A DNA stretch of 23,647 bases from a virus. The notes beneath the pieces are model-generated. The model saw only the letters and a program-made list of their open reading frames with translations. It was not told where the DNA came from and searched no databases. Both the position numbers and the translations under genes were made by a program. The stretch lies in IMG/VR virus record IMGVR_UViG_3300032323_000345, positions 1 through 23,647 of that record. One strand, given 5' to 3'. Positions within the stretch are counted from its first letter, which is position 1. The number at the start of each line of letters is the position of its first letter. Positions 1 through 19,007 of the stretch are shown here, one piece after another.

Positions 1-1924
<1,924 letters not shown>

Positions 1925-1933
1925 GGTGAAAAT

Positions 1934-2140
1934 ATGGACGATCTTCGCATCATCTACCCGAGCGATGACGGCGGCGTGGTCATTCTCATGCCCGCGCCTG
2001 AATGGCTTGCGCAGGAGGGCAACACCATTGAAGCCCTCGCTGCCAAGGATGTGCCGCCCGGAAAGCCCTATAAGATCGTTCCCGTGAGCGACATCCCGTT
2101 GGACCGCACGTTTCGCAACGCTTGGGAGTACGTGGAATGA
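1934..2140 (+). CDS. Small tail-fibre-associated protein (68 aa)
   Basis: The ATG lies nine bases after the fibre stop and has an AAGGTGA ribosome binding site. The protein reads MDDLRIIYPSDDGGVVILMPAP at its start (residues 1-22), then EALAAKDVPPGKPYKIV in the middle and DRTFRNAWEYVE at the end. I recognise this pattern (a beta-rich start, AAKDVP, IVxVSDIP, DRTFRNAWE) from short phage proteins usually found directly behind a tail-fibre gene. Their biochemical role is not established; an assembly or fibre-capping role is a guess from position. It overlaps the next gene by ATGA, which suggests translational coupling. Confidence 0.75.
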   Translation: MDDLRIIYPSDDGGVVILMPAPEWLAQEGNTIEALAAKDVPPGKPYKIVPVSDIPLDRTFRNAWEYVE

Positions 2141-2361
2141 TCCGCGTAAACATCGACAAGGCGAAGCATATCGCGCATGACATGCGTCGTGGGGAACGTG
2201 CGAAAGAGTTCGCGCCATATGATGTGAAAGCGACAATTCCCGGCGAGGCTGCGGCGGCTGAACAGGCCCGCAGTGATATCCGGCTCAAGTATGCCCTGAT
2301 GCAGGATGCTATTGATCTGGCTCAGACGCCGGATGAAATCAAAGCCGCGCTTGGCATTTGA
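2137..2361 (+). CDS. Small fibre-associated protein of the MIRVNxDKAK type (74 aa)
   Basis: The start is the ATG overlapping the previous stop (ATGA at 2137-2140); a TTG fifteen bases upstream is less likely. The protein begins MIRVNIDKAKHIAHDMRR and ends TPDEIKAALGI; the middle carries EFAPYDVKATIPGEAAAAEQ and a helical region. This pattern is familiar from short phage proteins paired with the preceding type behind tail fibres. The sequence looks mostly alpha-helical and is charged at the start. No enzymatic motif is visible. Function is unknown; co-translation with the preceding gene and position point to tail-fibre assembly or maturation as the simplest guess. Confidence 0.75.
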   Translation: MIRVNIDKAKHIAHDMRRGERAKEFAPYDVKATIPGEAAAAEQARSDIRLKYALMQDAIDLAQTPDEIKAALGI

Positions 2362-2389: not shown

Positions 2390-3976
2390 ATGCCTTTCAG
2401 TTCAGACAGCGGCAAGCACCATATTCGGCGCATTCTCAGCCGTATTCCGCACGCCAAAATGCTCGACATCGGGCCGGGGTTCGGCACTTACGCCAAGATG
2501 TTTCCTCACGCCGAATGGACGGGCGTAGAGATCTGGGAGCCCTACATCGAAAAGTATGGCCTCGCCTCCTTCTACAAACATCTGCACATTGCGGATGCCC
2601 GCGAGTGGGAGCCGACCGAACAATATGATGTGGCGTTTGCGGGCGATGTGTTGGAGCATATGACGGTCGAGGAGGCCAAGTCCCTCCTTGCTAAGCTCCG
2701 CGGCTGTGCTCAGACGGTCATCGTCAGCATCCCGATCGGCCACTACCCGCAGGACGAGTGGGAAGGAAACCCTTACGAGCGGCACGTCACGGACAATTGG
2801 ACCGATGAGGCGTTCCGTGAGGCGTTCGGCGAGCCCACATGGTCGAGCATCGATCGTGAGATCGGCATCTATGTGTGGACTCCTCATCGGGTCGGGCTGC
2901 GTATCTGCGTCTATGCGATCAGTAAGAACGAGGCGCATTTCGTGCCGCGTTTTTGCGAGTCGGCCAAAGAGGCGGACATGATCCTGATCGCGGATACCGG
3001 ATCGACGGACGGGTTGCCGGAAGTGGCGCGGCAGCATGGGGCGGTGGTGCATGATATCTGCATCACGCCGTGGCGCTTTGATCTCGCGCGGAATGCCGCG
3101 ATGGCGCTTATCCCGCGGGACATGGACGTGTGCATCTCCCTCGACATCGACGAGGTCTTGCAGCCGGGATGGCGGCAAGAGATCGAGCGTGTGTGGACGC
3201 CCGACACCACCCGGTTGCGGTACATGTTCGACTGGGGATGCGGGATTCAGTTCTATTACGAGAAGATCCACGCCCGGCACGGTTACATGTGGCATCACCC
3301 CTGCCATGAGTACCCGGTCCCTGACGGGCGGATCAAAGAGGTCTGGGCGACGACGCCGATGCTTCTTGCGGTGCATAAGCCCGACCCGACCAAGAGCCGC
3401 GGGCAGTACCTCGACCTCTTGGAATTGTCGGTCAAGGAAGACCCGCGGTGCCCGCGAAATGCGTTTTACTACGCTCGCGAACTGAGCTTCCATGCCAAGT
3501 ACGAAGAGTCGATCGAGGCCATCAATCGGTATCTGAAGATGCCAGAGGCCACTTGGCCGAACGAGAGGTGCTATGCCTATCGGACAATGGGTCGCTGTTA
3601 TTCTGAACTCGGGCGTCTCGATGAAGCTGAACGCGCCTTTCAGCAAGCCGCTGCGGAGGCCCCCAACACCCGAGAGCCTTGGTGCGAACTGGCGCTGCTT
3701 CTCTACAAGCAAGAACGGTGGGAAGAGACGTTCGCTTATTCCATGCGGGCGTTGAGGATCACCGACAAGGCGGCTGTGTACACCTGTGACCCTGCGGTCT
3801 GGGGGCACTGGGCTCACGACTTGGCATCTATTTCGGCTTGGAACCTCGGGCTTAAGAAGATCGCCTTGGAACAGGCTGAATTGGCTCACAAAGCATCGCC
3901 GGATGACCTTCGCTTGGAAGGCAATCTGATGTACATTCGCGCGGCAATGTCGGAACGAGCAGCAGAGGCCGCGTAA
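2390..3976 (+). CDS. Fused SAM methyltransferase - GT2 glycosyltransferase - TPR protein
   Basis: A 528-residue protein behind a strong GAGGGGGA ribosome binding site. Residues 1-165 look like a class I SAM-dependent methyltransferase: motif I LDIGPGFG at 25-32, acidic E47 in GVEIW, and DVAFAGDVLEHM at 80-91. From about 168 a second domain begins with ICVYAISKNEAHF, then ADTGSTDG, RFDLARNAA and a DID metal-binding signature at D252-D254. This is the SunS-like or TPR-linked branch of GT2 glycosyltransferases, where an aspartate motif binds the metal and nucleotide sugar. Residues from about 345 to 500 form TPR-like helical pairs (ARELSFHAKYEESIEAINRY, MGRCYSELGRLDEAERAF), often used to hold the acceptor protein. 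Acceptor and sugar are unknown. Its position two small genes behind a threonine-rich fibre suggests virion glycosylation, but DNA, cell-surface or host targets remain possible. Confidence 0.82.
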   Translation: MPFSSDSGKHHIRRILSRIPHAKMLDIGPGFGTYAKMFPHAEWTGVEIWEPYIEKYGLASFYKHLHIADAREWEPTEQYDVAFAGDVLEHMTVEEAKSLLAKLRGCAQTVIVSIPIGHYPQDEWEGNPYERHVTDNWTDEAFREAFGEPTWSSIDREIGIYVWTPHRVGLRICVYAISKNEAHFVPRFCESAKEADMILIADTGSTDGLPEVARQHGAVVHDICITPWRFDLARNAAMALIPRDMDVCISLDIDEVLQPGWRQEIERVWTPDTTRLRYMFDWGCGIQFYYEKIHARHGYMWHHPCHEYPVPDGRIKEVWATTPMLLAVHKPDPTKSRGQYLDLLELSVKEDPRCPRNAFYYARELSFHAKYEESIEAINRYLKMPEATWPNERCYAYRTMGRCYSELGRLDEAERAFQQAAAEAPNTREPWCELALLLYKQERWEETFAYSMRALRITDKAAVYTCDPAVWGHWAHDLASISAWNLGLKKIALEQAELAHKASPDDLRLEGNLMYIRAAMSERAAEAA

Positions 3977-4209
3977 TGCTGTACCAAGACCTCATCAACA
4001 CCTTGGCAGGGGCCGCTCTGGCCGTGATGGGGTGGTTCGGACGGCAGTTATGGGACGCCGTGAAGGAACTGCGCGGTGACTTGCATCGCATCGAAACCGA
4101 GCTTCCCCGTTCGTATGTGATGAAGGTGGACCTCGATCAGCGGATGCAGCACATCGAGCAGATGTTCCAACGCATCTACGACAAACTTGAAGCCAAGGCT
4201 GACAAGTGA
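3976..4209 (+). CDS. Small membrane protein with C-terminal coiled coil
   Basis: A 77-residue protein whose ATG shares one base with the preceding TAA (TAATG). Residues 6-22 (LINTLAGAALAVMGWFG) form one hydrophobic segment, followed by RQLWDAVKELRGDLHRIE and a charged helix to the end with heptad-like spacing. Single-TM proteins of this exact layout are common in phages beside holin and endolysin genes and are usually unnamed. It could be a holin accessory, an antiholin or a spanin-like protein. No lipobox or cysteine supports an outer-membrane spanin. Function is inferred only from topology and the lysis-gene neighbourhood. Confidence 0.7.
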   Translation: MLYQDLINTLAGAALAVMGWFGRQLWDAVKELRGDLHRIETELPRSYVMKVDLDQRMQHIEQMFQRIYDKLEAKADK

Positions 4210-4216
4210 GCCGCCG

Positions 4217-4693
4217 ATGTTTGAAGGCATCGAAAAGACCACGAAACTGATAGCTGCGGCAGCAGCCTCTCTTTCAGTGGTCGGAGGCAGTTGGACCCTT
4301 TCGGAAAAGTTCGGCTTTTTCGACAAAGAAGTGCTTGAATGGGCTCCCGAACATTTTGCCATCAGCAACGGCCGCGCTGATGGCGGGTTCCGGGTCGTCG
4401 CCGCTCGTCGCAAGGCCCGTGATGATTGCACGGTCGAGGACTTCCGCATCGGTATCATTGATCAGGATGGTGTGGCACACGAGGCAAAGCCGTCTTTCAG
4501 CCGCGTGTCCATCCCTGCGAGCGACACCATTCAAAGATTCGGGTATCGTATTTCGCTGATGACACCTGATGAGGTCGCGCCGGGGAAGGCGCAACTCGTC
4601 GCGCAAATCCGCTACAAGTGCCCGGAAGGCGATAAAACCATCGCCTATCCGACGCATGACAATCTGACATTCATCATCGAAGAGGCAAAGTGA
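4217..4693 (+). CDS. Membrane-anchored protein of the lysis region, unknown function
   Basis: I place the start at the ATG at 4217 (MFEGIEKTTK), seven bases after the preceding stop; an in-frame TTG thirty bases upstream would overlap the preceding gene and has no better support. The 158-residue product has a hydrophobic N-terminal helix at about 9-27 (KLIAAAAASLSVVGGSWTL) and then a soluble part with alternating beta-type segments such as DFRIGIIDQDG and RFGYRISLMTPDE, two cysteines (DDCTVED, YKCPEG) and a terminal FIIEEAK. I do not recognise a named family. The stop overlaps the holin start (TGATG), so it belongs to the lysis transcription unit. The exposed domain is probably periplasmic, given a single N-terminal membrane anchor. 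Confidence 0.7.
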   Translation: MFEGIEKTTKLIAAAAASLSVVGGSWTLSEKFGFFDKEVLEWAPEHFAISNGRADGGFRVVAARRKARDDCTVEDFRIGIIDQDGVAHEAKPSFSRVSIPASDTIQRFGYRISLMTPDEVAPGKAQLVAQIRYKCPEGDKTIAYPTHDNLTFIIEEAK

Positions 4694-5214
4694 TGGACTT
4701 CTCAAAGGTCGGCGGCCTCATTCAGCAGATCGCGCCAACGCTTGCCACGGCTCTCGGCGGGCCTCTGGCGGGCATGGCGGTCAAGACACTCAGCAACGCG
4801 CTGCTCGGTAATCCGAATGGCACCGAGGCTGATGTCGCAGAGGCTCTGACCAATGCCACGCCTGACCAGTTGGCGAGGCTGAAAGAAGTCGATGCTGCGT
4901 TCAAGACGCGGATGAAAGAACTCGACATTGATCTGGAGCGGATCGCTGCGGGTGATCGCTCCGACGCACGCGATCGTGAAGTTAAGACCGGGGACTGGAC
5001 GCCGAAGATTCTGGCGTTCGGGATCACGATGGGCTTCTTCGGTATCCTCGTGTGGATGTTCCTGCACGGTATGCCGACATCCGGCACCGAGGCCATGCTC
5101 ATCATGCTCGGCGCGTTGCAGACATCCTACACGGGCGTGATCGCTTACTATTTCGGCTCCTCTGCCGGGTCGAAGGCGAAGAACGACATGCTCGCCAATC
5201 AAAACGGGAAATGA
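4693..5214 (+). CDS. Holin, GTA 3-TM type
   Basis: A 173-residue protein starting MDFSKVGGLIQQIAP; the ATG overlaps the previous TGA, and a GTG one codon earlier is the only alternative. The layout fits the GTA_holin_3TM family: a glycine/alanine-rich amphipathic N-terminal segment (about 9-39), a charged helical middle (about 60-100), then two clear membrane segments at about 104-125 (TPKILAFGITMGFFGILVWM) and 132-154. The end carries the family-typical YYFGSSAGSKAK motif. Holins form lesions in the inner membrane at a set time and let the endolysin reach the wall. The endolysin gene follows within two bases of the stop, as expected. Confidence 0.85.
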   Translation: MDFSKVGGLIQQIAPTLATALGGPLAGMAVKTLSNALLGNPNGTEADVAEALTNATPDQLARLKEVDAAFKTRMKELDIDLERIAAGDRSDARDREVKTGDWTPKILAFGITMGFFGILVWMFLHGMPTSGTEAMLIMLGALQTSYTGVIAYYFGSSAGSKAKNDMLANQNGK

Positions 5215-5216
5215 CG

Positions 5217-5822
5217 ATGATCGACTTCGGCGACTTCAAAGGCATGGCCGCTACGCTTCAGATCGAAGAGGTGATCGGCCTTGCTCAAGAGAACGACATC
5301 GAACCCGCTGCTTTGCGTGCTGTGATCGCGGTAGAAGCCGCCGGATCCGGCTTCGACAAGCAGGGCCGTCCGAAGATCCTGTTCGAGCCGCACATCTTCC
5401 ATCGCCTTTTGTCGGGTGATGAGCGCCAAACGGCCATCGATGCGGGCATTGCCTATCCCAAGTGGGGTATGCAGCCCTATCCGAAAGGCTCGGACGCCCA
5501 GTACGCTCGCTTGGAGGCGGCGTCAGAAATCAATCAGTCGGTCGCACTGAAGTCGGCCTCGTGGGGCATGGGGCAGATCATGGGATCGAACCACAACCTC
5601 GCGGGCTATGGCGACGTGGAGACGTTCGTCTTCGCGTGCATGGACAGCGAGGCGAAGCACGTTGCCATGATGATCAGCTTCATCAAGAACGCGAAGCTGC
5701 TCGGTGCCATCCAGAATCTTGACTGGGCGGCGTTCGCTCGGGGCTACAACGGCCCTGCCTATGCCAAGAACCAGTATGATGTTAAACTTGCGGCGGCGTA
5801 TGAAAGGTTCTCCGCAGAATGA
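5217..5822 (+). CDS. Endolysin, N-acetylmuramidase (DUF3380 type)
   Basis: I chose the ATG at 5217 because an ACGGGAA ribosome binding site lies seven bases upstream; the ATG at 5211 would sit almost on that site. The 201-residue protein matches the N-acetylmuramidase family: AVIAVEAAGSGF with probable catalytic E40, then GRPKILFEPHIFHRL, SASWGMGQIMGSNHNLAGY and a terminal FARGYNGPAYAKNQYDVKLA. These enzymes cut the beta-1,4 bond between N-acetylmuramic acid and N-acetylglucosamine. There is no signal peptide or SAR-like anchor, so release should depend on the upstream holin. No separate wall-binding domain is visible, as is usual for phages of Gram-negative hosts. The stop overlaps the next gene start (ATGA). 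Confidence 0.9.
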   Translation: MIDFGDFKGMAATLQIEEVIGLAQENDIEPAALRAVIAVEAAGSGFDKQGRPKILFEPHIFHRLLSGDERQTAIDAGIAYPKWGMQPYPKGSDAQYARLEAASEINQSVALKSASWGMGQIMGSNHNLAGYGDVETFVFACMDSEAKHVAMMISFIKNAKLLGAIQNLDWAAFARGYNGPAYAKNQYDVKLAAAYERFSAE

Positions 5823-6532
5823 CAACGGGTCTCAACTACACGCAGTACGTGACGCAGATCGCCACGATGGCTGTCGTGGAGGAGACTAATCCTGCGTTTC
5901 TGACGATCCTGCCGCAGATGATCACCTACGCCGAGAACCGGCTGTATCGTGATCTGGACTTTCTGTTCACATCCGTGAGCAACACGTCCTACGCTTGCAC
6001 GGTGGGTACACGCGCCATCAATGTGCCGACCGGGACGTTCGTGGTGCCTGAGCAGATCAACCTGATCACCCCTGCCGGGACGGCGAGCCCTGACAACGGC
6101 ACCCGTGTTCCGCTCCTTCCGACCACGAAGGAGTTCCTCGACGCGGTGTACGGGGACAGCCAGAGCAAGGCGCTGCCGAAGTATTTCGCGGTGTTCGACG
6201 ATTTTCAGTTTCTGCTCGGGCCGTATCCTGATGCGGTCTATCAGGCGGAAATCGTCGGCACGATCCGCCCGAGCAGCCTGAGCGTGAGCAACCCGACCAC
6301 GTTCATCAGCCTGTATCTGCCTGACCTTCTGATCATGGCGAGCATGATCTACATCAGCGCCTATCAGCGCAATTTCGGTCGCGCCAATGACGATCCGCAA
6401 ATGGCCGTGACGTATGAGAGTCAGTATCAGGCGCTTCTGAAGGGCGCGATGATCGAGGAGAACCGGAAGAAATTCGAGGCTGCGGCGTGGTCTTCGCAGT
6501 CGCCTTCTCCCGTCGCTACCCCGACGAGGTAA
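5819..6532 (+). CDS. Head-tail adaptor protein, SU10-adaptor-like
   Basis: A 237-residue protein whose ATG overlaps the endolysin TGA. The N-terminus LNYTQYVTQIATMAVVEE, followed by MITYAENRLYRDLDF, is a pattern I associate with short-tailed phage adaptor proteins of the SU10 type, which bind beneath the portal and connect it to the tail nozzle. Mid-protein segments such as NVPTGTFVVPEQINLITPA and DDFQFLLGPYPD suggest beta structure; the C-terminal third is helical (DPQMAVTYESQYQALLKGA). It sits directly before a much larger nozzle-like gene, the usual order for these phages. Assigned by motif and position without a search. Confidence 0.78.
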   Translation: MTTGLNYTQYVTQIATMAVVEETNPAFLTILPQMITYAENRLYRDLDFLFTSVSNTSYACTVGTRAINVPTGTFVVPEQINLITPAGTASPDNGTRVPLLPTTKEFLDAVYGDSQSKALPKYFAVFDDFQFLLGPYPDAVYQAEIVGTIRPSSLSVSNPTTFISLYLPDLLIMASMIYISAYQRNFGRANDDPQMAVTYESQYQALLKGAMIEENRKKFEAAAWSSQSPSPVATPTR

Positions 6533-6535
6533 GCG

Positions 6536-9061
6536 ATGCCTTACGCTTCGTTCAAAATCCTCCCCGGCGTGGATCAGAACAAGACCCCCGCCCTCAATGA
6601 GGCTGCGGTCTCCGAAAGCCAACTGATCCGGTTCATTCCTGACAGGACGCTCGGCGGTCTGGTGCAGAAGCTTGGCGGTTGGCAGAAGTACCTCAGTAGC
6701 TCCGTCGCCTCCGTAATCCGCGCTCTTTGGGCGTGGGAGGACACTAACGGCAACAGCTATCTGGGCATTGGTGCCGAGGGCATCGCGCCCATCACTGTCA
6801 CGAATGCCACGGGCAACGGAACCACCGTCACGCTGACGCACACCGGGAACTTTGTTTTCCAGACGGATTTTGCGATCACCGTGACGGGCATCAACCCGGT
6901 TGGATACAACGGAACCTATACGGTGACGGCGGCTACCCCGACGACGGTGCAGTTTGCGAGCACTGAAACGGGGCTATACAATTCAGGCGGGGAAATCATT
7001 GGCGGCGGGCGGTCCCTTGAGGTGGCGTTGTCCGGGGGCTCGACGTTCGACATCACCCCGCAGACCAGAACCGTCAACACTACCGTAAGCTTCTCGACCA
7101 CAGCCGGACTCAATGAAGTCACCGTCACCGACACGGGGCGAAACGCGGACGCCTATGATACTGTTGATATCCGAACTCAGGTCAGCGTCGGCGGCTTGGT
7201 GCTGTTCGGGCTTTATCCCATCACGCCGCTAGGCCCGAACACCTATAGGATTTTCGCGTTTGACCTGACAGGTCAGCCGCAGTTAGCCAAATCGCCATCC
7301 ATTACCAACGGCGGAGCAGTCCCGAAGTTCTTCGCAACCACGGGCAGCGATTCTGTTATCGTTTATCTGGAAGATCACAATCTGCTGCCGGGGGACACGT
7401 TCCCGGTTCTGGTGGCTACTTCCGTTGGCGGCATTACTCTTTTTGGCAACTACATCGTTCGTGGCTTAAACCCGGATGATACGGAAGACCCGGCAGACGC
7501 TTTCAGAATTTCCGTGAGCACTACTGCCGGAGCCATTCCGGTGACAAATGCGTCGGGAACAGGCACCGTCGTAACCATCACGCATCAGAACTCGCCCTCG
7601 GAAATTACGTTCACCAACGGCGAAGATGTCGTAATCGCGGGCGTGGACCCGGCGGGCTACAACGGCACCAAAACAATCACGACATCTACGGACGGCTCGT
7701 TCACATATGCAGCCGCGACCACAGCGACGTATGTCAGTGGCGGCACGGTCAGTGGCGAGTTCAGCTTTTTTGAGAACAACGGTCAAGTTCAGTTCGTCTA
7801 CTATAACGGCATCGGTCCGCAGCCGGAGGGGTCGGGATACGGTATCGGGCCGTATGGTGCCGGTGGCTATGGCACAGGAAACCCGCCTCCTGCGGCCAAT
7901 ACCGGCGTGCCGATCAATGCGGTGGATTGGACCCTTGACAACTGGGGCGAGACGCTTGTGGCGTGCCCTCTTGGCGGGCCGATCTATGCTTGGAATCCCA
8001 CGCTCGGCGATCCTGTGGCCCAGATCATTCCTGAATGCCCTGTGGTCAACGAGGGCATGTTCGTCGCCATGCCGCAGCGCCAGATCGTGGCATGGGGTTC
8101 CACGTTCACGGGGATCATCGATCCGCTTCTCATCCGGTGGTCGGATGTGAACAATTACAATTCGTGGATCGGCCTGATCAACAATCAGGCGGGGTCATAC
8201 CGCATCCCCAAGGGCTCCCGCATCATTCAGTGCATCCAAGGCCCGCAGCAGGGGCTGATCTGGACGGACCTCGCCGTCTGGGCGATGCAGTATGCAGGGC
8301 CGCCCTACGTCTATCAGTTCAACGAGATAGGCACGGGCTGCGGTCTCATCGGCCGCAAGGCTGCGGCTTCCGTGAACGGCGTCGTCTACTGGATGGGCTC
8401 AAGCCAGTTTTTCCGGTTGGCGGGCAACGGCGTCGAGCCGATCCGCTGCCCTGTCTGGGACGTGGTCTTCCAAGACCTCGACTTGAACAACCTCGACAAA
8501 ATCCGCGTGGCTCCGAACAGCCGTTTCGGTGAAATTTCGTGGTTCTACCCGACGCAGTCGAACGGCGGCGAGGTCAGTCACTACGTCAAATACAACTTCA
8601 ACCTCGACCAGTGGGACTTCGGCACTCTGGGACGCACGGCATGGATCAATGAGTCCGTGCTCGGCCCTCCGATCGGCGCGGCCCCTGACACGTTCATCTA
8701 TCAGCACGAAACGTCGCCCGACGCTGATGGTCAGCCGATGCTGTCGTCTTTCCAGACGGGTTACTTCGCGATGACCGAAGGCAACGTAAAGCTGTTCGTC
8801 GATCAGGTCTGGCCCGACATGAAGTGGGGCTATTACGGCGGCACGCAGGGCGCGAACGTCAAGATGACGTTCTTTGTGACCGACTTTCCGGGTCAGACGC
8901 CGATCCAATATGGTCCGTTCACGATGACACAGGCTTCAACCTTCTTTACGCCGCGCTTCCGTGGCCGCTTGGTATCCATCAAGATCGAGAGTGATGACAT
9001 CGGCTCGTTCTGGCGTCTCGGGAATATCCGATACCGTCTGCAAGAGGATGGGAGGTTCTGA
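6536..9061 (+). CDS. Tail nozzle-like protein with a duplicated inserted domain
   Basis: An 841-residue protein with a GAGGT ribosome binding site five bases before the ATG. The N-terminal PYASFKILPGVDQNKTPALN and the C-terminal half (DNWGETLVACPLGGPIYAW, WSDVNNYNSW, DLAVWAMQYAGPP, WMGSSQFFRLAGNG) show repeated beta-blade-like sequence, as in nozzle or tail-stabilising proteins of short-tailed phages (P22 gp10, T7 gp12 class). Two related inserts interrupt it: residues about 83-158 (VTNATGNGTTVTLTHTG, then NPVGYNGTYTV) and about 332-410 (VTNASGTGTVVTITHQ, then DPAGYNGTKTI). They look like duplicated beta-sandwich domains that may decorate the tail. The stop overlaps the next gene start (TGATG). 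Role inferred from order after the adaptor and from blade-like repeats. Confidence 0.75.
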   Translation: MPYASFKILPGVDQNKTPALNEAAVSESQLIRFIPDRTLGGLVQKLGGWQKYLSSSVASVIRALWAWEDTNGNSYLGIGAEGIAPITVTNATGNGTTVTLTHTGNFVFQTDFAITVTGINPVGYNGTYTVTAATPTTVQFASTETGLYNSGGEIIGGGRSLEVALSGGSTFDITPQTRTVNTTVSFSTTAGLNEVTVTDTGRNADAYDTVDIRTQVSVGGLVLFGLYPITPLGPNTYRIFAFDLTGQPQLAKSPSITNGGAVPKFFATTGSDSVIVYLEDHNLLPGDTFPVLVATSVGGITLFGNYIVRGLNPDDTEDPADAFRISVSTTAGAIPVTNASGTGTVVTITHQNSPSEITFTNGEDVVIAGVDPAGYNGTKTITTSTDGSFTYAAATTATYVSGGTVSGEFSFFENNGQVQFVYYNGIGPQPEGSGYGIGPYGAGGYGTGNPPPAANTGVPINAVDWTLDNWGETLVACPLGGPIYAWNPTLGDPVAQIIPECPVVNEGMFVAMPQRQIVAWGSTFTGIIDPLLIRWSDVNNYNSWIGLINNQAGSYRIPKGSRIIQCIQGPQQGLIWTDLAVWAMQYAGPPYVYQFNEIGTGCGLIGRKAAASVNGVVYWMGSSQFFRLAGNGVEPIRCPVWDVVFQDLDLNNLDKIRVAPNSRFGEISWFYPTQSNGGEVSHYVKYNFNLDQWDFGTLGRTAWINESVLGPPIGAAPDTFIYQHETSPDADGQPMLSSFQTGYFAMTEGNVKLFVDQVWPDMKWGYYGGTQGANVKMTFFVTDFPGQTPIQYGPFTMTQASTFFTPRFRGRLVSIKIESDDIGSFWRLGNIRYRLQEDGRF

Positions 9062-9421: not shown

Positions 9422-11065
9422 ATGCCGCTCAAGAAGGGTTCTTCTCAAGCGACGATTTCGAAGAACATCCGCACCGAGATGGGCGCGGGGAAGCCGCAGA
9501 AGCAGGCCGTTGCGATCGCGCTCGACATCGCGAGGCGCACAGCCAAGGCGGGCGGTGGCCCAATCGATCCGACGCTACCGACCTATACGGGCGTTCCTCT
9601 GACGGAAGAGGAAATGAACCGTCCCTTCATTCATTACGCTGCGCCTGAACGAACGGTCTCAGCGGCACCTCCTGCGCTTTTCACAGGGCCGGTTTACAGC
9701 AACTTGGAGCGCCAAGGTCGGAAGATTGCGCAGCGGCGGCTTGCATCCAAAGCGCCTCCGCCGCTTTCGCCGCCCGTCGAAGTAAGCCCTCCGCCGCGTG
9801 TGTTTGACCCGGTCCCGTACACTTTCGCGGCTCGCACGCCTATGGTGCGCGAAGGGTTTCCGATGGCACGGGAGAGGAGCGTCAGCCCTTCTTCGCCTGA
9901 GAACCGTTATATGCGGGAGACGATGCCGTCCCCGGCAAAGCAGCCTGCTCGTGTTCCGATGCCGCCTCGTCGGCCTGTCGAGGACACTTCGCGTACCGTT
10001 TACTACGCCAACCCGACATTCTCAGACGGCGATGCTATGGTTCGTCGCCTCGGCTCTGATTTCAAGCCGACGAGAGAGCAGTTGGAGAGCGGTGCTATCT
10101 TTGGTTTGCAGGAGTCCGCGCGCAGGGCTTCCGGCGGGGCCGTGGATCTCGCCCGTCGCGTGACGAAGCAGGGCGGCGGTCAGCTTGGCTTTCTCGGCAT
10201 GATGCCGGGTGCGATGCCCGGCGTGACGCCCATGCCGGGGATGCCCGCGCCCGTGCTTCCCCCGTCGATGGGCGGCATGCCTCTGACGGCTGCTGCTACG
10301 CAGGCTTCTGCCGCTGCCCCGCAGCAGATGAACACGAACGATGTCAGCGGCGGCATCAGCGACGGCAATGCATCGGGCGGCTTCGGCGACAGCGGCGGTG
10401 CGGCCATGTACCGTGGTGGCCGCGCTGCTTACGCTGCGGGCGGCTCTTTTGATCGTGAGCCGAGCCCGTTCGACCGGCCTCCCCCGCCGAATGACTTCAT
10501 CCGCATGGCCCGCGACATCGTCGGCGGTGCTAAGGACGAAATCCCTGTTCTTAAAGATGTAGAGCCGGGGCAGGCGTATTTCGGCGGGTCTCGCGGTGAG
10601 AGCGAGAAGGTGCATGTGGGGCCGATCCACAGCCCTGTCGCCGGGCGCACCGACCATCTGCCTGTGCATGTTCCCTCGGGGAGCTATGTTATCCCTGCGG
10701 ATATCATCTCCGCGATGGGCGAAGGCAACACGATGTCCGGGTTCAAGGTGGCGGAGAAGATCTTCAAGGCCGCTCCTGAGATGATGGGCTCCCCCGGCAT
10801 GCCTATGGGCGAACTCAGCGGAATGCCGGGTGCGCGGGCGCTTCCGGAAATGCCGCAGAAGCGCGCTGAAGGCGGTCGGACGTATGACGACACCGTCCCC
10901 GTCATCGTGGCGGGTGGGGAATACGTCATCCCGCCGGAAGAGGTGCATCGCATCGGCGGCGGAGATATGGACAAAGGCCACAGCGAACTTGACCGCTTCG
11001 TCAAAGCCATGCGAGCGAGGCTTGTTCAAACGCTCCGCAAACTGCCGGGGCCAAAACGCGACTAA
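9422..11065 (+). CDS. Glycine-rich internal virion protein with DUF6496-like N-terminus
   Basis: A 547-residue protein behind a GAGGAGA ribosome binding site. The first 40 residues (PLKKGSSQATISKNIRTEM then GKPQKQAVAIALDIAR) match the DUF6496 pattern seen in many phages. Residues about 50-200 are proline-rich and disordered looking. The middle has methionine/glycine-rich runs and a YAAGGSFDR motif. Toward the end come DHLPVHVPSGSYVIPADI and VPVIVAGGEYVIPPEEV, two copies of a motif with SGSYVIP or AGGEYVIP, followed by a basic C-terminus. Similar glycine motifs recur in the next two large virion proteins. Likely a structural or ejected protein; no enzymatic motif is seen. Confidence 0.72.
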   Translation: MPLKKGSSQATISKNIRTEMGAGKPQKQAVAIALDIARRTAKAGGGPIDPTLPTYTGVPLTEEEMNRPFIHYAAPERTVSAAPPALFTGPVYSNLERQGRKIAQRRLASKAPPPLSPPVEVSPPPRVFDPVPYTFAARTPMVREGFPMARERSVSPSSPENRYMRETMPSPAKQPARVPMPPRRPVEDTSRTVYYANPTFSDGDAMVRRLGSDFKPTREQLESGAIFGLQESARRASGGAVDLARRVTKQGGGQLGFLGMMPGAMPGVTPMPGMPAPVLPPSMGGMPLTAAATQASAAAPQQMNTNDVSGGISDGNASGGFGDSGGAAMYRGGRAAYAAGGSFDREPSPFDRPPPPNDFIRMARDIVGGAKDEIPVLKDVEPGQAYFGGSRGESEKVHVGPIHSPVAGRTDHLPVHVPSGSYVIPADIISAMGEGNTMSGFKVAEKIFKAAPEMMGSPGMPMGELSGMPGARALPEMPQKRAEGGRTYDDTVPVIVAGGEYVIPPEEVHRIGGGDMDKGHSELDRFVKAMRARLVQTLRKLPGPKRD

Positions 11066-11575: not shown

Positions 11576-14500
11576 ATGGGCAACAAAGGCAGCACGACAA
11601 CTCAGACGGTAAAAATCCCGCCCGAGGTCATGGCGCGGTACAATGCCGTCAACAAGCGTGCAGAAGCACTCGCCTCGCGTCCTTTTCAGCCTTACACGGG
11701 CCAGTTCGTTGCCGGCCTGACGGGTCAGCAGCAGGCAGGTATGGCGGGCATCAATGCCGCCACCGGCATGGCGCAGCCGTATTATGAGACGGCGGCTGCG
11801 ATGACTCAGGCGGGTGCCGGTCCTGTGGGCCGTCTCACGCGCGAGCAGATCAGAGAGTACGAAAACCCGTATACCGAGTCCGTCGTGGATCCGACCCGGC
11901 GTGCTCTGGAGCAGCAGCAGGGGCAGGAGCGGGCTATGCTCGCGGCTCAGGCGATCCGCTCCGGAGCGTTCGGCGGCGATCGTGCGGGCTTGGAGCGCGC
12001 CAACCTTGCTCGTCAGCAGTCTCTGGGGATGGCTCAGGCGATCTCGCCGCTGTATCAGCAGGGCTATCAGCAAGCCGTGCAAACTGCCATGGGGCAGCAG
12101 GGCATCCGTGCTGCGGACCTTCAGCGTCAGTTGGCGGCGGGACAGCAGTATGCGGGTCTCGGCACGGCTGCGCAGCAGGCGGCGTTGCAGGCCGCTCAAG
12201 CGCAGATCGGCGCGGGTACTCTTGAGCAGCAGACGCAGCAGGCGGATCTCACGGCCAAGTATCAGCAGTTTTTGCAGGAGCGCGGGTACGACTTCCAAGT
12301 CGCGCAGTTCCTCGCGAACATCGCGATGGGCACGGGCGCGCTGTCTGGCTCGACCACGACCACGACGCAGCCGTCTTCGTTCTTCTCCGACGAGCGGATG
12401 AAAGAGAACATTCAGCCGATCGGCGAGACGTTCGACGGGCAGAAAATCTACAAGTACAACTACAAGGGCGAACCCGGCACGCAGATCGGTCTGATCGCGC
12501 AGGAAGTCGAACGGAAGCACCCTGAAGCCGTAGGCATGGCCGGCGGCATGAAGACGGTCGATTATGACCGGGCCACCGAGCATGCGGGCGGTCTCGGCAA
12601 GGCAATGTCCTCGATGGGCGGAGCCGTGCATGAACCCGGCGCTTATTCTCGCGGCGGTTATGCTCCGGGCGGTCTTGTCGATCCTAACGACCTTCAGGCC
12701 ATTCTTGCCTCGCAGCGCGAATCCTTCGGCCCCTACATGCAGGGCGGTCCTTATGGGCAGTCTGCGCAGCAAGCCCCGTTCTCAGGCGCAGGCGGCATCG
12801 TGCCTGCCGCCCGTTTGCCTACGCCCAAGCTTGTCACGGCAGGCCCGGTTCCGCGTCAACAGGAATCCGGCATGCAGGAGGCTATGCGGACGTTTGATGC
12901 TGCCTCTGATGCAGGGTCGAAGATCGGCAAAACCTATGATTTCTTCGCCGGCACAGACCCGAAAAAGGACAGCGCGGGCAACCCGATTCAAGGCACCGGC
13001 ACTCCGAGCCTGAAGGAGCGGGTCGAGAAGGCTCGCGAAGGCATGCGCAGGTTCCTTCCGGGCAGTGCTCACGGCGGCGGCGTGCGCCCGCATTACGCTG
13101 CGGGCGGTGGGAGCATCAATCCCTATGACCCGAACAAAAATCCGATGGATTACTTTCCGGAGGAAGTGCTTGAGGACAACGAGCAGAAGAATGAAATGCT
13201 CAAGCCCGGTCAGGCTCCGGGGCAGGGCCAAAGCGGCTTGGGGCAGCTTGCGAACGCTGTCGGGACTGCGAGCACGATCGCAACCGGCATCGGCAAGGTT
13301 GCTCCTTACCTGATGGCCCTCATTCCGTCCGATGAGCGCCTCAAGCACGACATTGAACCTGTCGGCAAGACCTACGACGGGCAGAACATCTATCGCTATC
13401 ACATGGGCGATGGCGCGATGCGCATGGGCCTGATGGCTCAGGAAGTCGCTGAACGGAACCCTGACGCGGTTGCTCGTGGTCCGGGCGGCTACCTGATGCT
13501 CGACTATGACAAGGCCACCGGCGATGCGGTGCCGCATGAAGGCGGCGTTCGTCCTCGCGAAGGCTTGCGGGAAGGCGGTACGCCTGATCGTTCCGGCATC
13601 ATCGACATCATCCGTCGCGAAGCTGAAGCGCAGGGTGTGCCGTTTGACGTTGCGTACAATATCGCTCGCCGTGAAAGCGGCCTGAACCCGGCTGCTCGGG
13701 CCGAGACATCTACCGCCGGTGGTTTGTATCAAATCATCGACCCGACCTTTAAGGCTCTCGGCGTCGAAGGCGATAAGATGGATCCGAACGTCAATGCGCG
13801 TGCGGGCATCAAATATATCGGGCAGAACATCGCTGCGCTGCGTGAAGCAGGGCAAGAGACTTCACCCGGCAACGTGTATCTCGCTCACTTCCTCGGCACG
13901 GAAGGCGCTCGTCGCGTTCTTTCCAACCCTGATGCGCCGCTCGCGGAAACCATCCCGAACTTTGAGAGGGTGGTTGCTGCAAACCCGTTTGTGGGCAAGA
14001 TGGCGACTGGACGCGATATCGCGAACTGGGCCGACACTCGCATGGGATCCGACGCCTATCGCCCGGCACCGCAGGCCAAGGCTGAAGGTGTCAAGCCGTC
14101 GAGCAGCTTCTTCGGCACGCCGCCCACGTCGTTCCAGACGGGTAAACCGTTTGAATCTTATGGCGACTTCTTCAAGAGCAAGCAGTTCGTTGTGCCTTTC
14201 CTGACAGGGATCGGCGCGATGGCTCAATCGCCGTCACGCTACCTCGGCGCTGCTGTTCTTCAGGGGCTTGGAGCAGGCGCGCAAAGCTACGCCAATCTTG
14301 AACAGCAGCAGGCGGGTATCGCGAAGACCAAGGCAGAAACTGAACTGACCGGGACTCAAGAACAGCAAATTCTTGCTGACATTCCGCGCACGGCCATGAT
14401 CGTTGATGAGCTTGGGCGCACAGTCGGCGTGCGTGTCTACGTCAATGGCCGCATGACCACGGTCACTCCGAAGCAGTACTTCGATGCTCTCCGCAGTGGG

Positions 14501-15511
14501 CGTCCGTATGATCTCGCGCCTGTCGGTGGCTCTGCGACCGCCGGAGGTCTTGGTGCGGGTGCGACGGGCACGGGCGGACCTTCTGCGCCGGGTGGAGTTG
14601 GTCCTGCGGCGACTGCGCCTGCGGAGCCTGCCCGTAGCGAACCGGCCGCTGCTCCCGGCGGCGTGACTCCTCCCGTATATCGGGTTCTGCCTGAAGACAT
14701 TCGACAGTTGGCGGAAACGCGCGGTATTCAAGTGCAGGAAACCGGCGTCAAAAACCTCGAAAAATCGCCTGAAGCCAACCCGTTTGATGCTCAGTCTGAA
14801 GCTGCGCGCTTGTCGTCGCAGAATCTTGGACAGCGCAACATGCTTGCCAAAAACCTTGCGGAGATCGGTCGCAAGGGTAAGCCCGGCCCGATCGAGCCCG
14901 GCAAATTCTCCGCTGAAGTCGGAACGCCGGTGGCGTCTTGGCTTAAGGGCTTCCTCCGCAACGCGGGCGTAGATGCCGAAGGGCTCAACAGCTTGCAGGA
15001 TCTCGGCAAGACCGAAGTCGTGGAGAAAATCCGGCGGCAGCTTTCTCTCGGCCTTGCATCCGGCGCGGGACAGCGCGCGGCGCAAGTGTTCGAAGAGTTG
15101 ATGGCGGCTGTGCCGGGGCAGGTCAACGATCCTGAAGCTGCAGCGCAGTTGGTGTCGGACATCTACTTCATCTCGCAGCGCGAGGTGGATCTCGACCGTT
15201 TCTATCGTCAGGTCCGCAGCGAAGCCGAACGGCGTACCGGCATCAACCAAAGCGAATCCCGCTTCATCGGACAGGGTCTGTATGACGCCTATATGTCCCG
15301 CATGCAGGGGCAATATGCGACCGAGAAAGAGGCCATCCGCAGGATGTATCTCGACAAGATCGAGGTCAAAGATCCTGCCACGGGCAAGCAGATACAGACC
15401 TACGTCCTTCCGTATCTGCTCTCAAATCCGCAGGGCATTCCGAGGAACATTCAGGCAGAAATCGCTAAAAGATATGGTCCTGACATCCTCCGGTATTTCA
15501 ACGGGCAGTAA
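11576..15511 (+). CDS. Large internal virion protein: two S74-like motifs plus lytic transglycosylase domain
   Basis: A 1311-residue protein starting three bases after the acetyltransferase stop. Residues about 60-250 are glutamine/alanine-rich helices. At 271 lies SDERMKENIQPIGETFDGQ, then GLIAQEVERKHPEAV: the core of the S74 intramolecular chaperone domain. At 585 it recurs as SDERLKHDIEPVGKTYDGQ with GLMAQEVAERNPDAV. From about 674 to 830 is an SLT-type transglycosylase domain: NIARRESGLNPAAR with probable catalytic E700, then AGGLYQIIDPTF and AYLAHFLG-like NVYLAHFLGTEGA. Residues about 871-905 are hydrophobic; 981-1035 are a Pro/Gly/Ala linker; the rest is helical. This fits an ejected protein that locally opens peptidoglycan for DNA entry. 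The S74-like units are internal, whereas the classical domain is C-terminal. Confidence 0.82.
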   Translation: MGNKGSTTTQTVKIPPEVMARYNAVNKRAEALASRPFQPYTGQFVAGLTGQQQAGMAGINAATGMAQPYYETAAAMTQAGAGPVGRLTREQIREYENPYTESVVDPTRRALEQQQGQERAMLAAQAIRSGAFGGDRAGLERANLARQQSLGMAQAISPLYQQGYQQAVQTAMGQQGIRAADLQRQLAAGQQYAGLGTAAQQAALQAAQAQIGAGTLEQQTQQADLTAKYQQFLQERGYDFQVAQFLANIAMGTGALSGSTTTTTQPSSFFSDERMKENIQPIGETFDGQKIYKYNYKGEPGTQIGLIAQEVERKHPEAVGMAGGMKTVDYDRATEHAGGLGKAMSSMGGAVHEPGAYSRGGYAPGGLVDPNDLQAILASQRESFGPYMQGGPYGQSAQQAPFSGAGGIVPAARLPTPKLVTAGPVPRQQESGMQEAMRTFDAASDAGSKIGKTYDFFAGTDPKKDSAGNPIQGTGTPSLKERVEKAREGMRRFLPGSAHGGGVRPHYAAGGGSINPYDPNKNPMDYFPEEVLEDNEQKNEMLKPGQAPGQGQSGLGQLANAVGTASTIATGIGKVAPYLMALIPSDERLKHDIEPVGKTYDGQNIYRYHMGDGAMRMGLMAQEVAERNPDAVARGPGGYLMLDYDKATGDAVPHEGGVRPREGLREGGTPDRSGIIDIIRREAEAQGVPFDVAYNIARRESGLNPAARAETSTAGGLYQIIDPTFKALGVEGDKMDPNVNARAGIKYIGQNIAALREAGQETSPGNVYLAHFLGTEGARRVLSNPDAPLAETIPNFERVVAANPFVGKMATGRDIANWADTRMGSDAYRPAPQAKAEGVKPSSSFFGTPPTSFQTGKPFESYGDFFKSKQFVVPFLTGIGAMAQSPSRYLGAAVLQGLGAGAQSYANLEQQQAGIAKTKAETELTGTQEQQILADIPRTAMIVDELGRTVGVRVYVNGRMTTVTPKQYFDALRSGRPYDLAPVGGSATAGGLGAGATGTGGPSAPGGVGPAATAPAEPARSEPAAAPGGVTPPVYRVLPEDIRQLAETRGIQVQETGVKNLEKSPEANPFDAQSEAARLSSQNLGQRNMLAKNLAEIGRKGKPGPIEPGKFSAEVGTPVASWLKGFLRNAGVDAEGLNSLQDLGKTEVVEKIRRQLSLGLASGAGQRAAQVFEELMAAVPGQVNDPEAAAQLVSDIYFISQREVDLDRFYRQVRSEAERRTGINQSESRFIGQGLYDAYMSRMQGQYATEKEAIRRMYLDKIEVKDPATGKQIQTYVLPYLLSNPQGIPRNIQAEIAKRYGPDILRYFNGQ

Positions 15512-17301: not shown

Positions 17302-18126
17302 ATGTCGTTCACGACCAACAAAGTCCTCGAAAAGCCCGCCAACGGGTCATACGTTGATCAGTGGGATGTCCCGCTGAACGGTGACATGGACATCATCGAT
17401 CAGGCGTTCGGCGGCGTCACGAACCTGAATGCCACGTCCGGCAGCGCCACTCTGGTTGATACCCAGTTTCGGTCTTTGACGCTGAACATCCAGAACGCAA
17501 TAGCCGCTCCCGTGACATACACGATCCCGAATGGCGTGGGCGGTCAGTGGATTGTCCGAAACACCACGACGGATTCCAGTGGCGGGCCTCACGCCGTCAC
17601 CATCCGCAACGGCGGCGGTGATGCGGGCATCGCTATTCCGCGCGGCATCCCGACGATCATCTATTCGGACGGTACGAACGTCAGGTCCACGTCTACGCCT
17701 GTTCCCGGCAGTGACACGGAGGTGATCTTCAACGACAACGGCTCTTTCGGTGCCTCGTCGGACTTCACGTGGGACGGCTCCGTTCTGACCGCGACCGACG
17801 TGGCAGATGACATCGGCAACGTCCGAGACGTGCCCATCAATTCGCAGACGGGGACGTACATCCTCGTGGCGACGGACGCCGGGAAGTTCATTTCCATCAC
17901 CACGGGCGGCGTGGCGGTTCCGGCCTCCATCTTCACGGTCGGGCAGACGGTCACGATCTACAACAACTCGGTCAATTCCCAGACGATCACGCAGGGCACG
18001 TCCGTCACGCTGCGACAGGTGGGCACGACGAACACGGGCAACCGCACGCTCGCCGCCTACGGACTTTGCACGCTGCTCTGCGTGGCTTCCAACACGTTCG
18101 TCATCACCGGCGGCGGGGTCTCCTAA
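17302..18126 (+). CDS. Tail fibre protein
   Basis: A 274-residue protein with an AAGGAG ribosome binding site. The start SFTTNKVLEKPANGSYVDQW followed by DIIDQAFGG is a recurrent fibre N-terminus that probably attaches to the tail. A module at about 134-165 (GSDTEVIFNDNGSFGASSDF then WDGSVLTAT) resembles one in the collagen-like fibre ([12 protein letters not shown]). The C-terminal domain, from about 175, contains ILVATDAGKFISITTGGVAV, FTVGQTVTIYNNS and SQTITQGTSVTLRQVG, a beta-rich module common at fibre ends. It overlaps the next gene by one base (TAATG), suggesting that both are assembled together. Confidence 0.82.
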   Translation: MSFTTNKVLEKPANGSYVDQWDVPLNGDMDIIDQAFGGVTNLNATSGSATLVDTQFRSLTLNIQNAIAAPVTYTIPNGVGGQWIVRNTTTDSSGGPHAVTIRNGGGDAGIAIPRGIPTIIYSDGTNVRSTSTPVPGSDTEVIFNDNGSFGASSDFTWDGSVLTATDVADDIGNVRDVPINSQTGTYILVATDAGKFISITTGGVAVPASIFTVGQTVTIYNNSVNSQTITQGTSVTLRQVGTTNTGNRTLAAYGLCTLLCVASNTFVITGGGVS

Positions 18127-19007
18127 TGACTGCTTACGCCATCCTCCTCGGCTCCGGTGGACGCAACCCACCTCCGACAGTCGAGTATCTGGTCGTCGCG
18201 GGTGGCGGCGGTGGTGGCACTCATGGTAGCCGCAGCGCGGGCGGTGGCGGCGCGGGTGGTTTTCGCACGGCGAGCGGCTTTGCTGTAGCCCCTGACGTTG
18301 CGATCACCGTCACTGTCGGTGCCGGTGGAAACGGCTCTACCGACGGCAGCGTTCAAGGATCATCAGGGTCTAATTCCGTCTTCAGCACGATTACGGCAAC
18401 TGGCGGTGGCGGCGGCGGTTCAAATGCGTCTCAAGGCGCAGGAATTGGGTTGAACGGCGGCAGCGGTGGCGGCGGCGGCACGAGAGGCGATCAAAGCGGC
18501 ACCACTGCGGGCGGCACGGGAACGGCGGGGCAGGGCAATAACGGTGGCCTTGGGCGTAATTCTAATACGGGCGGCGATCCTACAGCGGGCGGTGGTGGCG
18601 GTGGCGCATCTGCGGTCGGCGGGAACGGGACGCTCGATGGAGGCGGGGACGGCGTCGGCGGCGCGGGTGGCGCGGGCACGGCATCATCCATTTCCGGCAC
18701 ATCCGTAACGTATGCGGGCGGCGGCGGTGGATCGGCTATAACAGGCGGCGCGGGTGGCGCGGGCGGCGGTGGCGCGGGACGTTCCGGTTCTGGCGCGGGC
18801 GTAGCAGGAACGGCCAATACCGGCGGCGGCGGCGGTGGCGGGCGAGGGACCGGCTTTGCGGGCGGCAACGGCGGCTCGGGTATCGTAATCATTCGATACT
18901 CGTCGCAATACAGCCTTGCCCTGAGCACGACGGGATCGCCCTCTGTCACGACATCAGGCGGGTTCCACGTCTACACGTTCACGAATTCCGGCAGCATCAC
19001 GTTCTGA
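18126..19007 (+). CDS. Glycine-rich fibre or receptor-binding protein
   Basis: The ATG shares one base with the preceding TAA; an upstream in-frame start would overlap that gene by 60 bases and is rejected. The 293-residue protein has the common opening VEYLVVAGGGGGG (about residues 19-31) and then roughly 230 residues rich in glycine with scattered alanine, serine and threonine, ending with GGNGGSGIVIIRYSSQY and a short beta-type tail HVYTFTNSGSITF. The VEYLVVAGGG...GIVIIRY frame is a well-known phage fibre glycine-rich domain. By analogy with glycine-rich adhesin tips of other phages, polyglycine helices could form a packed sheet whose loops decide host range; that is inference. It is the last gene of the rightward block. 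Confidence 0.82.
   Translation: MTAYAILLGSGGRNPPPTVEYLVVAGGGGGGTHGSRSAGGGGAGGFRTASGFAVAPDVAITVTVGAGGNGSTDGSVQGSSGSNSVFSTITATGGGGGGSNASQGAGIGLNGGSGGGGGTRGDQSGTTAGGTGTAGQGNNGGLGRNSNTGGDPTAGGGGGGASAVGGNGTLDGGGDGVGGAGGAGTASSISGTSVTYAGGGGGSAITGGAGGAGGGGAGRSGSGAGVAGTANTGGGGGGGRGTGFAGGNGGSGIVIIRYSSQYSLALSTTGSPSVTTSGGFHVYTFTNSGSITF

Follow-up and report, generated by a model that had tools for sequence, protein, structure and literature searches.

A phage gene that joins a methyltransferase to a glycosyltransferase raises the question of which molecule its product modifies. One such gene lies near the beginning of a 23.6-kb IMG/VR record (the window, meaning the whole stretch of DNA that was analysed), just downstream of a collagen-like gene. 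The features on which the argument turns are the following:

1..1924, + strand: collagen-like fibre gene, its 5' end cut by the window edge, presumed acceptor (translation, Pfam Collagen)
1934..2140, + strand: small ORF of 68 aa between the collagen gene and the enzyme (ORF list)
2137..2361, + strand: small ORF of 74 aa from the ATG at 2137, between the collagen gene and the enzyme (ORF list; no Pfam family)
2390..3976, + strand: MTase-GT2-TPR fusion protein, 528 aa (open frame, Pfam, PHROG 13126, AlphaFold2 pLDDT 90.3)
2390..2884, + strand: class I SAM-dependent methyltransferase domain, residues 1-165 (Pfam, structural matches, invariant residues)
2897..3385, + strand: GT-A fold, GT2-type glycosyltransferase domain, residues 170-332 (Pfam, invariant residues, fold matches)
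3410..3964, + strand: TPR helices, residues 341-525, presumed acceptor-binding arm (Pfam, AlphaFold2, TPR fold matches)

Three domains in one reading frame

The ORF at 2390-3976 (+ strand) runs uninterrupted from ATG to stop, encodes 528 aa and has a purine-rich ribosome-binding site, GAGGGGGAC, immediately 5' of its ATG. The original prediction had placed methyltransferase, GT2 and TPR domains together in this single frame, and we confirmed the observation by Pfam matches, an AlphaFold2 model and structural matches to each part. The motifs named at the time were all located: LDIGPGFG (residues 25-32), VLEHM (87-91), ISKNEAHF (177-184) and DID (252-254). Structure prediction, which had been proposed as a check, was performed with an input alignment of 45 relatives and recovered all three folds: the model (mean pLDDT 90.3, pTM 0.77) has a Rossmann domain, a GT-A domain and TPR helices in pairs.

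The N-terminal part of the 528-aa protein matched Pfam Methyltransf_11 with 21.7 bits (cut-off 21.2). It carries a class I methyltransferase signature composed of motif I (L25-D-I-G-P-G-F-G32), E47, D69, D86-V-L-E-H-M91 and H132, of which D26, G28, G30, G32, E47, D69 and H132 are invariant in the 34 of 34 fused rows of the alignment. A motif I of the (D/E)xGxGxG type, an acidic residue after beta-2 and the Rossmann fold are all present, as in class I SAM methyltransferases, and VIA-align matched residues 1-164 to such enzymes with Z ~16. The protein N-terminal methyltransferases NTMT1/NRMT2 were among the top structural matches, with Z scores tied with those of many other class I enzymes. Judged by its motifs, the methyltransferase is intact.

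The remainder of the chain matched Pfam Glycos_transf_2 with 23.3 bits, exactly at the cut-off of 23.3, TPR_2 with 28.1 bits (cut-off 27) and TPR_14 with 28.5 bits (cut-off 23.5), while a match to PHROG 13126 spans residues 171-523 (E 1e-102). The glycosyltransferase domain carries D202-T-G-S-x-D207 and a metal site, D252-x-D254-E255; D202, D252, D254 and E255 do not vary across the 45 alignment rows, fused or not. In Foldseek searches the glycocin S-glycosyltransferases SunS and ThuS ranked first (E ~1e-13), and VIA-align placed them at Z ~20-21 with the 528-aa model, GT-A enzymes such as WrtF at Z ~16 over residues 169-332, and TPR domains, including that of O-GlcNAc transferase, at Z ~15-17. 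The SunS-like arrangement of GT2 and TPR parts that had been put forward is thus borne out at the level of fold.

Comparison with known systems separated fold from family. SunS and ThuS are the best overall fold match, sharing a GT2-type catalytic domain and a C-terminal helical arm with the window protein; they differ in acting on glycocin peptides and in having no methyltransferase. Membership in the SunS family (TIGR04195) was rejected: despite the similar fold, the window protein gave no match to this model at E<=0.01. The sole family member that did match it, from Actinomycetia phage DSL-LC01, reached 17.6 bits against an NCBIfam cut-off of 350. An O-GlcNAc transferase (GT41) type was likewise rejected. 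The eukaryotic and Xanthomonas OGTs share with the window protein a TPR arm for presenting protein acceptors (Z ~15.7 for the TPR match), but their catalytic domain is GT-B, whereas that of the window protein is GT-A/GT2, as its matches to SunS, ThuS and WrtF over residues 169-332 indicate. GmaR of Listeria targets flagellin and also serves as an antirepressor. Its GT2 domain is similar to residues 170-257 (E 2.7e-4) and its helical part was aligned by Foldseek (7x9r, E 1e-6); the differences are its role as a flagellin glycosyltransferase and antirepressor and the lack of a collagen neighbour.

Distribution of the fusion and variation in its modules

The original prediction had also regarded this layout as peculiar and undescribed. 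This part did not hold. IMG/VR was scanned with the 528-aa protein, and among the 80 of 209 candidate loci that were listed, the full fusion was found at 62-75% identity in at least ~50 contigs, from freshwater and other environmental phages. The domain-architecture search suggested at the time thus finds such fusions to be common among phage contigs, and since full-length fusions recur in this number of contigs, a unique fusion arising by chance or as an assembly artefact was excluded. The unannotated UniProt phage protein A0A6J5ND39 is 61% identical over 524 columns; it and its relatives (Glycosyltransferase, DXD sugar-binding motif) share the overall fold of the window protein and differ in being unstudied entries, the length of 790 aa fitting a four-domain form with Gly_transf_sug such as that of L001 (below). 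Related methyltransferase-glycosyltransferase proteins are also encoded in Brevibacillus and Desulfotomaculum.

Most of the remaining listed loci match from residue 165-170 onward and have no methyltransferase. We considered that such relatives might carry the methyltransferase as a neighbouring gene, and rejected this when a methyltransferase profile, run against every ORF in the DNA fetched for L052-L080, found no separate gene. When presence of the methyltransferase is mapped on a tree built from the GT2-TPR part, 12 changes are required, at least 8 of them forced by well-supported branches; long bacterial branches are unreliable in this tree, and the counted changes fall mostly among phage rows. 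The row nearest to the window enzyme, L052 (86% identity), has no methyltransferase. Because the domain has come or gone at least 8 times among the phage enzymes, and because the nearest relative does without it, the methyltransferase appears to be an interchangeable cap.

Other modules are joined to the same core. Seven relatives (L001, L004, L029, L033, L060, L067 and L070) bear a C-terminal extension of ~255 aa, which in L001 matches Gly_transf_sug (PF04488), so that methyltransferase, GT2, TPR and a second glycosyltransferase-like domain form one chain. In L636 (70% identity), whose contig was binned with Anaerolineales, the domains run methyltransferase, Gly_transf_sug, GT2. In Brevibacillus fulvus, B. 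fluminis and a Desulfotomaculum MAG, proteins of 525-601 aa combine a related methyltransferase (E 2e-45 to 2e-56) with a diverged glycosyltransferase, and their genes sit directly before a GT2-TPR gene. At 6498-9092 of L640 and L641 (Acidimicrobiaceae and Actinomycetota MAGs), GT2-TPR is fused to an N-terminal part of ~500 aa, beside collagen-like genes with Thr at a fraction of ~0.4 of Y positions; in L640 this N-terminal part matched no Pfam family at E<=1e-3.

The collagen-like gene upstream

The original prediction overlooked the likely acceptor, the Thr-rich collagen-like gene just upstream, which proved to be a consistent neighbour. In the window, the product of 1-1924 contains 73 consecutive Gly-X-Y triplets followed by a fibre-like C-terminal part, and matches Pfam Collagen with E 2e-30. 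Thr occupies the Y position in 68 of 77 counted triplets (4 of the 77 lie away from the collagen block and form a run by chance), the prevailing triplets being GPT (33), GAT (23) and GST (8).

Two further ORFs of the window may be recorded beside this gene. The one at 11576-15511 (+ strand) encodes a 1311-aa protein with two segments that, read by eye, resemble the phage-fibre intramolecular chaperone (SDERMKENIQP...GLIAQEV and SDERLKHDIEP...GLMAQEV), and after these copies a stretch that, also by eye, resembles a lytic transglycosylase, YNIARRESGLNP. The ORF at 18066-19007 (+ strand) is very glycine-rich, with GGGGG runs, in a style like that of the fibre-like genes that precede the enzyme where relatives have no collagen.

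For neighbour counts, the homologous loci (80 of 209 listed) were clustered at 95% identity. Where >3 kb of DNA before the enzyme gene was available (28 non-redundant loci among those listed), a collagen-like gene was always present upstream (28/28), and Thr made up at least 40% of Y positions in 26/28; with a threshold of >2 kb the counts were 32/35 and 30/35, respectively. GPT accounted for 1478 of 2561 triplets in the neighbouring collagens of the listed loci, and the gap from collagen to enzyme ranged from an overlap up to ~3.8 kb. In the L030 and L036 groups, which have full fusions, the upstream collagen is Asn/Ala-rich (GNPGNNG type), with a Y-Thr fraction of 0.04-0.11. L030 additionally has a short GPT-containing ORF at 10530-10751.

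Four controls were used, by type of collagen, by phage backbone, in distant phages and in bacteria. For the first, viral contigs were collected through DNA patterns that encode GPT, GPQ, GPA and GPK repeats, and the family glycosyltransferase was called at E<1e-50; the GPA pattern partly matches its own complement, and about half of the GPA loci were without collagen and were dropped from the counts. The family enzyme was present in 13/87 GPT-type collagen loci vs 0/212 GPQ, GPA and GPK loci (p 5e-8). Most GPT collagens have no such enzyme close by, and therefore the enzyme predicts the collagen and not the reverse. The second control held the phage backbone constant: the 841-aa structural protein encoded at 6536-9061 was used to fetch 80 loci, of which 26 have at least 5 kb upstream, and among these a Thr-collagen was found in 7/17 GT-carrying loci (8/17 with L602, which has short collagen runs), several of the 17 being cut near the glycosyltransferase, vs 0/9 GT-lacking loci.

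The main weakness of a collagen acceptor is a set of five GT-carrying loci with >3 kb upstream, L574, L575, L591, L604 and L615, in whose fetched DNA no collagen gene was found upstream. In L574, L575, L604 and L615, non-collagen genes, Gly-rich or otherwise fibre-like, lie immediately upstream. Because of these five loci, the glycosyltransferase family may act on non-collagen fibres as well.

More distant relatives extend the neighbourhood. In phage DSL-LC01, 43% identical over the GT2-TPR part, two collagen genes with Y-Thr of 0.61-0.65 lie just upstream. Between them and the GT2-TPR gene, at 6433-8004 of this locus (L202), there is a tryptophan halogenase gene (Pfam E 6e-50) that overlaps the latter by a few bases; the fibre may be a target of the halogenase too. 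In a faecal phage contig, the gene next to the enzyme on its upstream side is collagen-like, with a lower Y-Thr of 0.36, and in the jumbo phages PaBG and HRDY3 (32-37% identity) no collagen was found in the stretch read.

The closest GTDB homologues are mostly 41-46% identical and belong to Bacilli and Clostridia. A collagen-like gene with Y-Thr above 0.2 was present in the fetched DNA of 48/80 bacterial homologues, many of whose contigs are short. In a sample of 291 genomes from the class of Sinanaerobacter (Clostridia), the Thr-collagen pattern was found in 9/14 GT-bearing vs 39/277 GT-less genomes (p 5e-5; p 2e-4 with the seed genome removed), p-values that are only indicative because the genomes share ancestry. 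In G229 (L742, reverse strand), a more distant GT2-like protein is encoded at 304-1416, ~2 kb before a collagen gene at 3314-7462 whose 1378-aa product has 360 triplets with Thr at Y in 98%.

Proposed acceptor and reaction

A characterized enzyme offers a close parallel. SgtA of Clostridioides difficile has 358 aa, consists of GT-A and TPR parts and is encoded directly upstream of bclA3; in vitro this Mn-dependent enzyme attaches beta-O-GlcNAc to the Thr residues of GPT collagen peptides (PMC7157674). The GT2-TPR part of the window protein (residues 170-528) has 359 aa in the same GT-A-then-TPR order, carries in D252-x-D254-E255 a DXD-type site of the kind a metal-dependent enzyme such as SgtA needs, and its gene likewise adjoins a GPT-rich collagen-like gene (1-1924). 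The two were compared by build and neighbourhood, and they differ in that SgtA is a spore enzyme with no methyltransferase domain. A GT2-like protein of 363 aa with 8 Cys from G229 was considered as a candidate for SgtA itself and rejected, the reported protein having 358 aa and 10 Cys. In the literature searched, which left most subscription papers outside its reach, no paper on a phage collagen glycosyltransferase was found; papers in which both glycosyltransferases and collagen of phages come up ascribe the enzymes to LPS (PMC7029224) or to DNA (PMC10202952).

Because of the SgtA-like build (359 vs 358 aa) and the same kind of neighbour, collagen O-glycosylation is the best reading, and with reasonable though far from full confidence we predict that the 528-aa protein is an O-glycosyltransferase for the upstream collagen-like virion fibre, with Thr as the acceptor. 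The alternative closest to it is a general action on virion fibre or tail proteins, the collagen being a frequent neighbour in a shared fibre cassette. The same-backbone relatives L574, L575, L604 and L615, next to fibre-like genes of other kinds, are what such a general activity would look like, but it does not account for the tie to Thr-rich collagen in particular (13/87 loci vs none of 212 of the other types), nor for the recurrence of the Thr-collagen link in bacterial genomes, outside any phage tail context, and we consider it improbable. We give somewhat less credit still to the proposal that the enzyme alters the host envelope (LPS or capsule) and so blocks superinfection. PHROG 13126 is annotated as beta-1,4-glycosyltransferase and some relatives as UDP-glucose LOS glucosyltransferase, and LPS modification is the role proposed for pelagimyophage glycosyltransferases (PMC7029224). 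Against it stand a TPR arm on a SunS/ThuS-like fold, whose acceptors are peptides, the constant collagen neighbour, and close relatives in Gram-positive Bacilli and Clostridia, which have no LPS.

Two other acceptors carry very little weight. S-glycosylation of a small peptide, a glycocin, would agree with the SunS and ThuS fold matches; the failure to match the SunS family model and the single low-scoring relative point away from it, as do the conserved neighbour, which is a collagen-like fibre, and the fact that no glycocin precursor was recognised, although no dedicated search for one was made. This makes it very improbable. Least credible of all is glycosylation or methylation of phage DNA against restriction, a role often assigned to phage-encoded glycosyltransferases (PMC10202952), given the TPR arm, the position beside fibre genes and the bacterial homologues beside collagen genes. 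For the methyltransferase a separate choice arises, which concerns the glycan-capping step only: it could methylate the fibre polypeptide or another protein in place of a sugar. The NTMT1/NRMT2 matches of residues 1-164 would fit this, but many other class I enzymes score equally well and the fold does not indicate the methyl acceptor, and the repeated joining to one glycosyltransferase family, with some relatives adding a second glycosyltransferase domain, fits glycan building better. We regard protein methylation as rather unlikely.

In the preferred reading, O-glycosylation of the collagen-like fibre, the TPR arm would grip the Gly-X-Thr repeat chain prior to or outside triple-helix folding. 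The GT-A domain, drawing on a nucleotide sugar and on a divalent metal bound through D252/D254, would place a sugar on the hydroxyl of a Y-position Thr. The N-terminal methyltransferase would then most likely cap the glycan by O-methylating the sugar just added or an additional one. By analogy with SgtA, UDP-GlcNAc may be guessed as the donor. A sugar cap is the simplest reading since the methyltransferase is fused to a glycosyltransferase, and the methyltransferase probably does cap the added sugar, a step we hold with less confidence than the acceptor. We infer the acceptor, the O-linkage and the timing of the reaction from architecture and neighbourhood, and the methyl target on the glycan more weakly. 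The original proposal, in which one enzyme attaches a sugar to a protein acceptor and then caps it, is supported, as a prediction, by the intact SAM motifs, the repeated joining of methyltransferase and glycosyltransferase and the collagen neighbourhood. Overall, the enzyme is predicted to work like SgtA in its acceptor and to be built like SunS/ThuS in its fold; it would be the phage counterpart of the collagen-glycosylating enzyme of C. difficile spores.

If the prediction is right, many environmental phages would glycosylate their own collagen-like fibre, while the usual assignment of phage glycosyltransferases is to DNA or the host envelope, and a family labelled beta-1,4-glycosyltransferase would gain an acceptor and a mechanism. 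The collagens of phages would be tied to the spore-surface collagens of Bacillota, and the fusion would provide a compact single-chain enzyme for methyl-capped, glycosylated collagen repeats. More tentatively, at slightly short of an even chance, many phages may build a densely O-glycosylated collagen-like fibre with their own enzyme and repeatedly swap its cap modules (methyltransferase, second DXD glycosyltransferase), which would make the sugar coat an evolvable surface trait.
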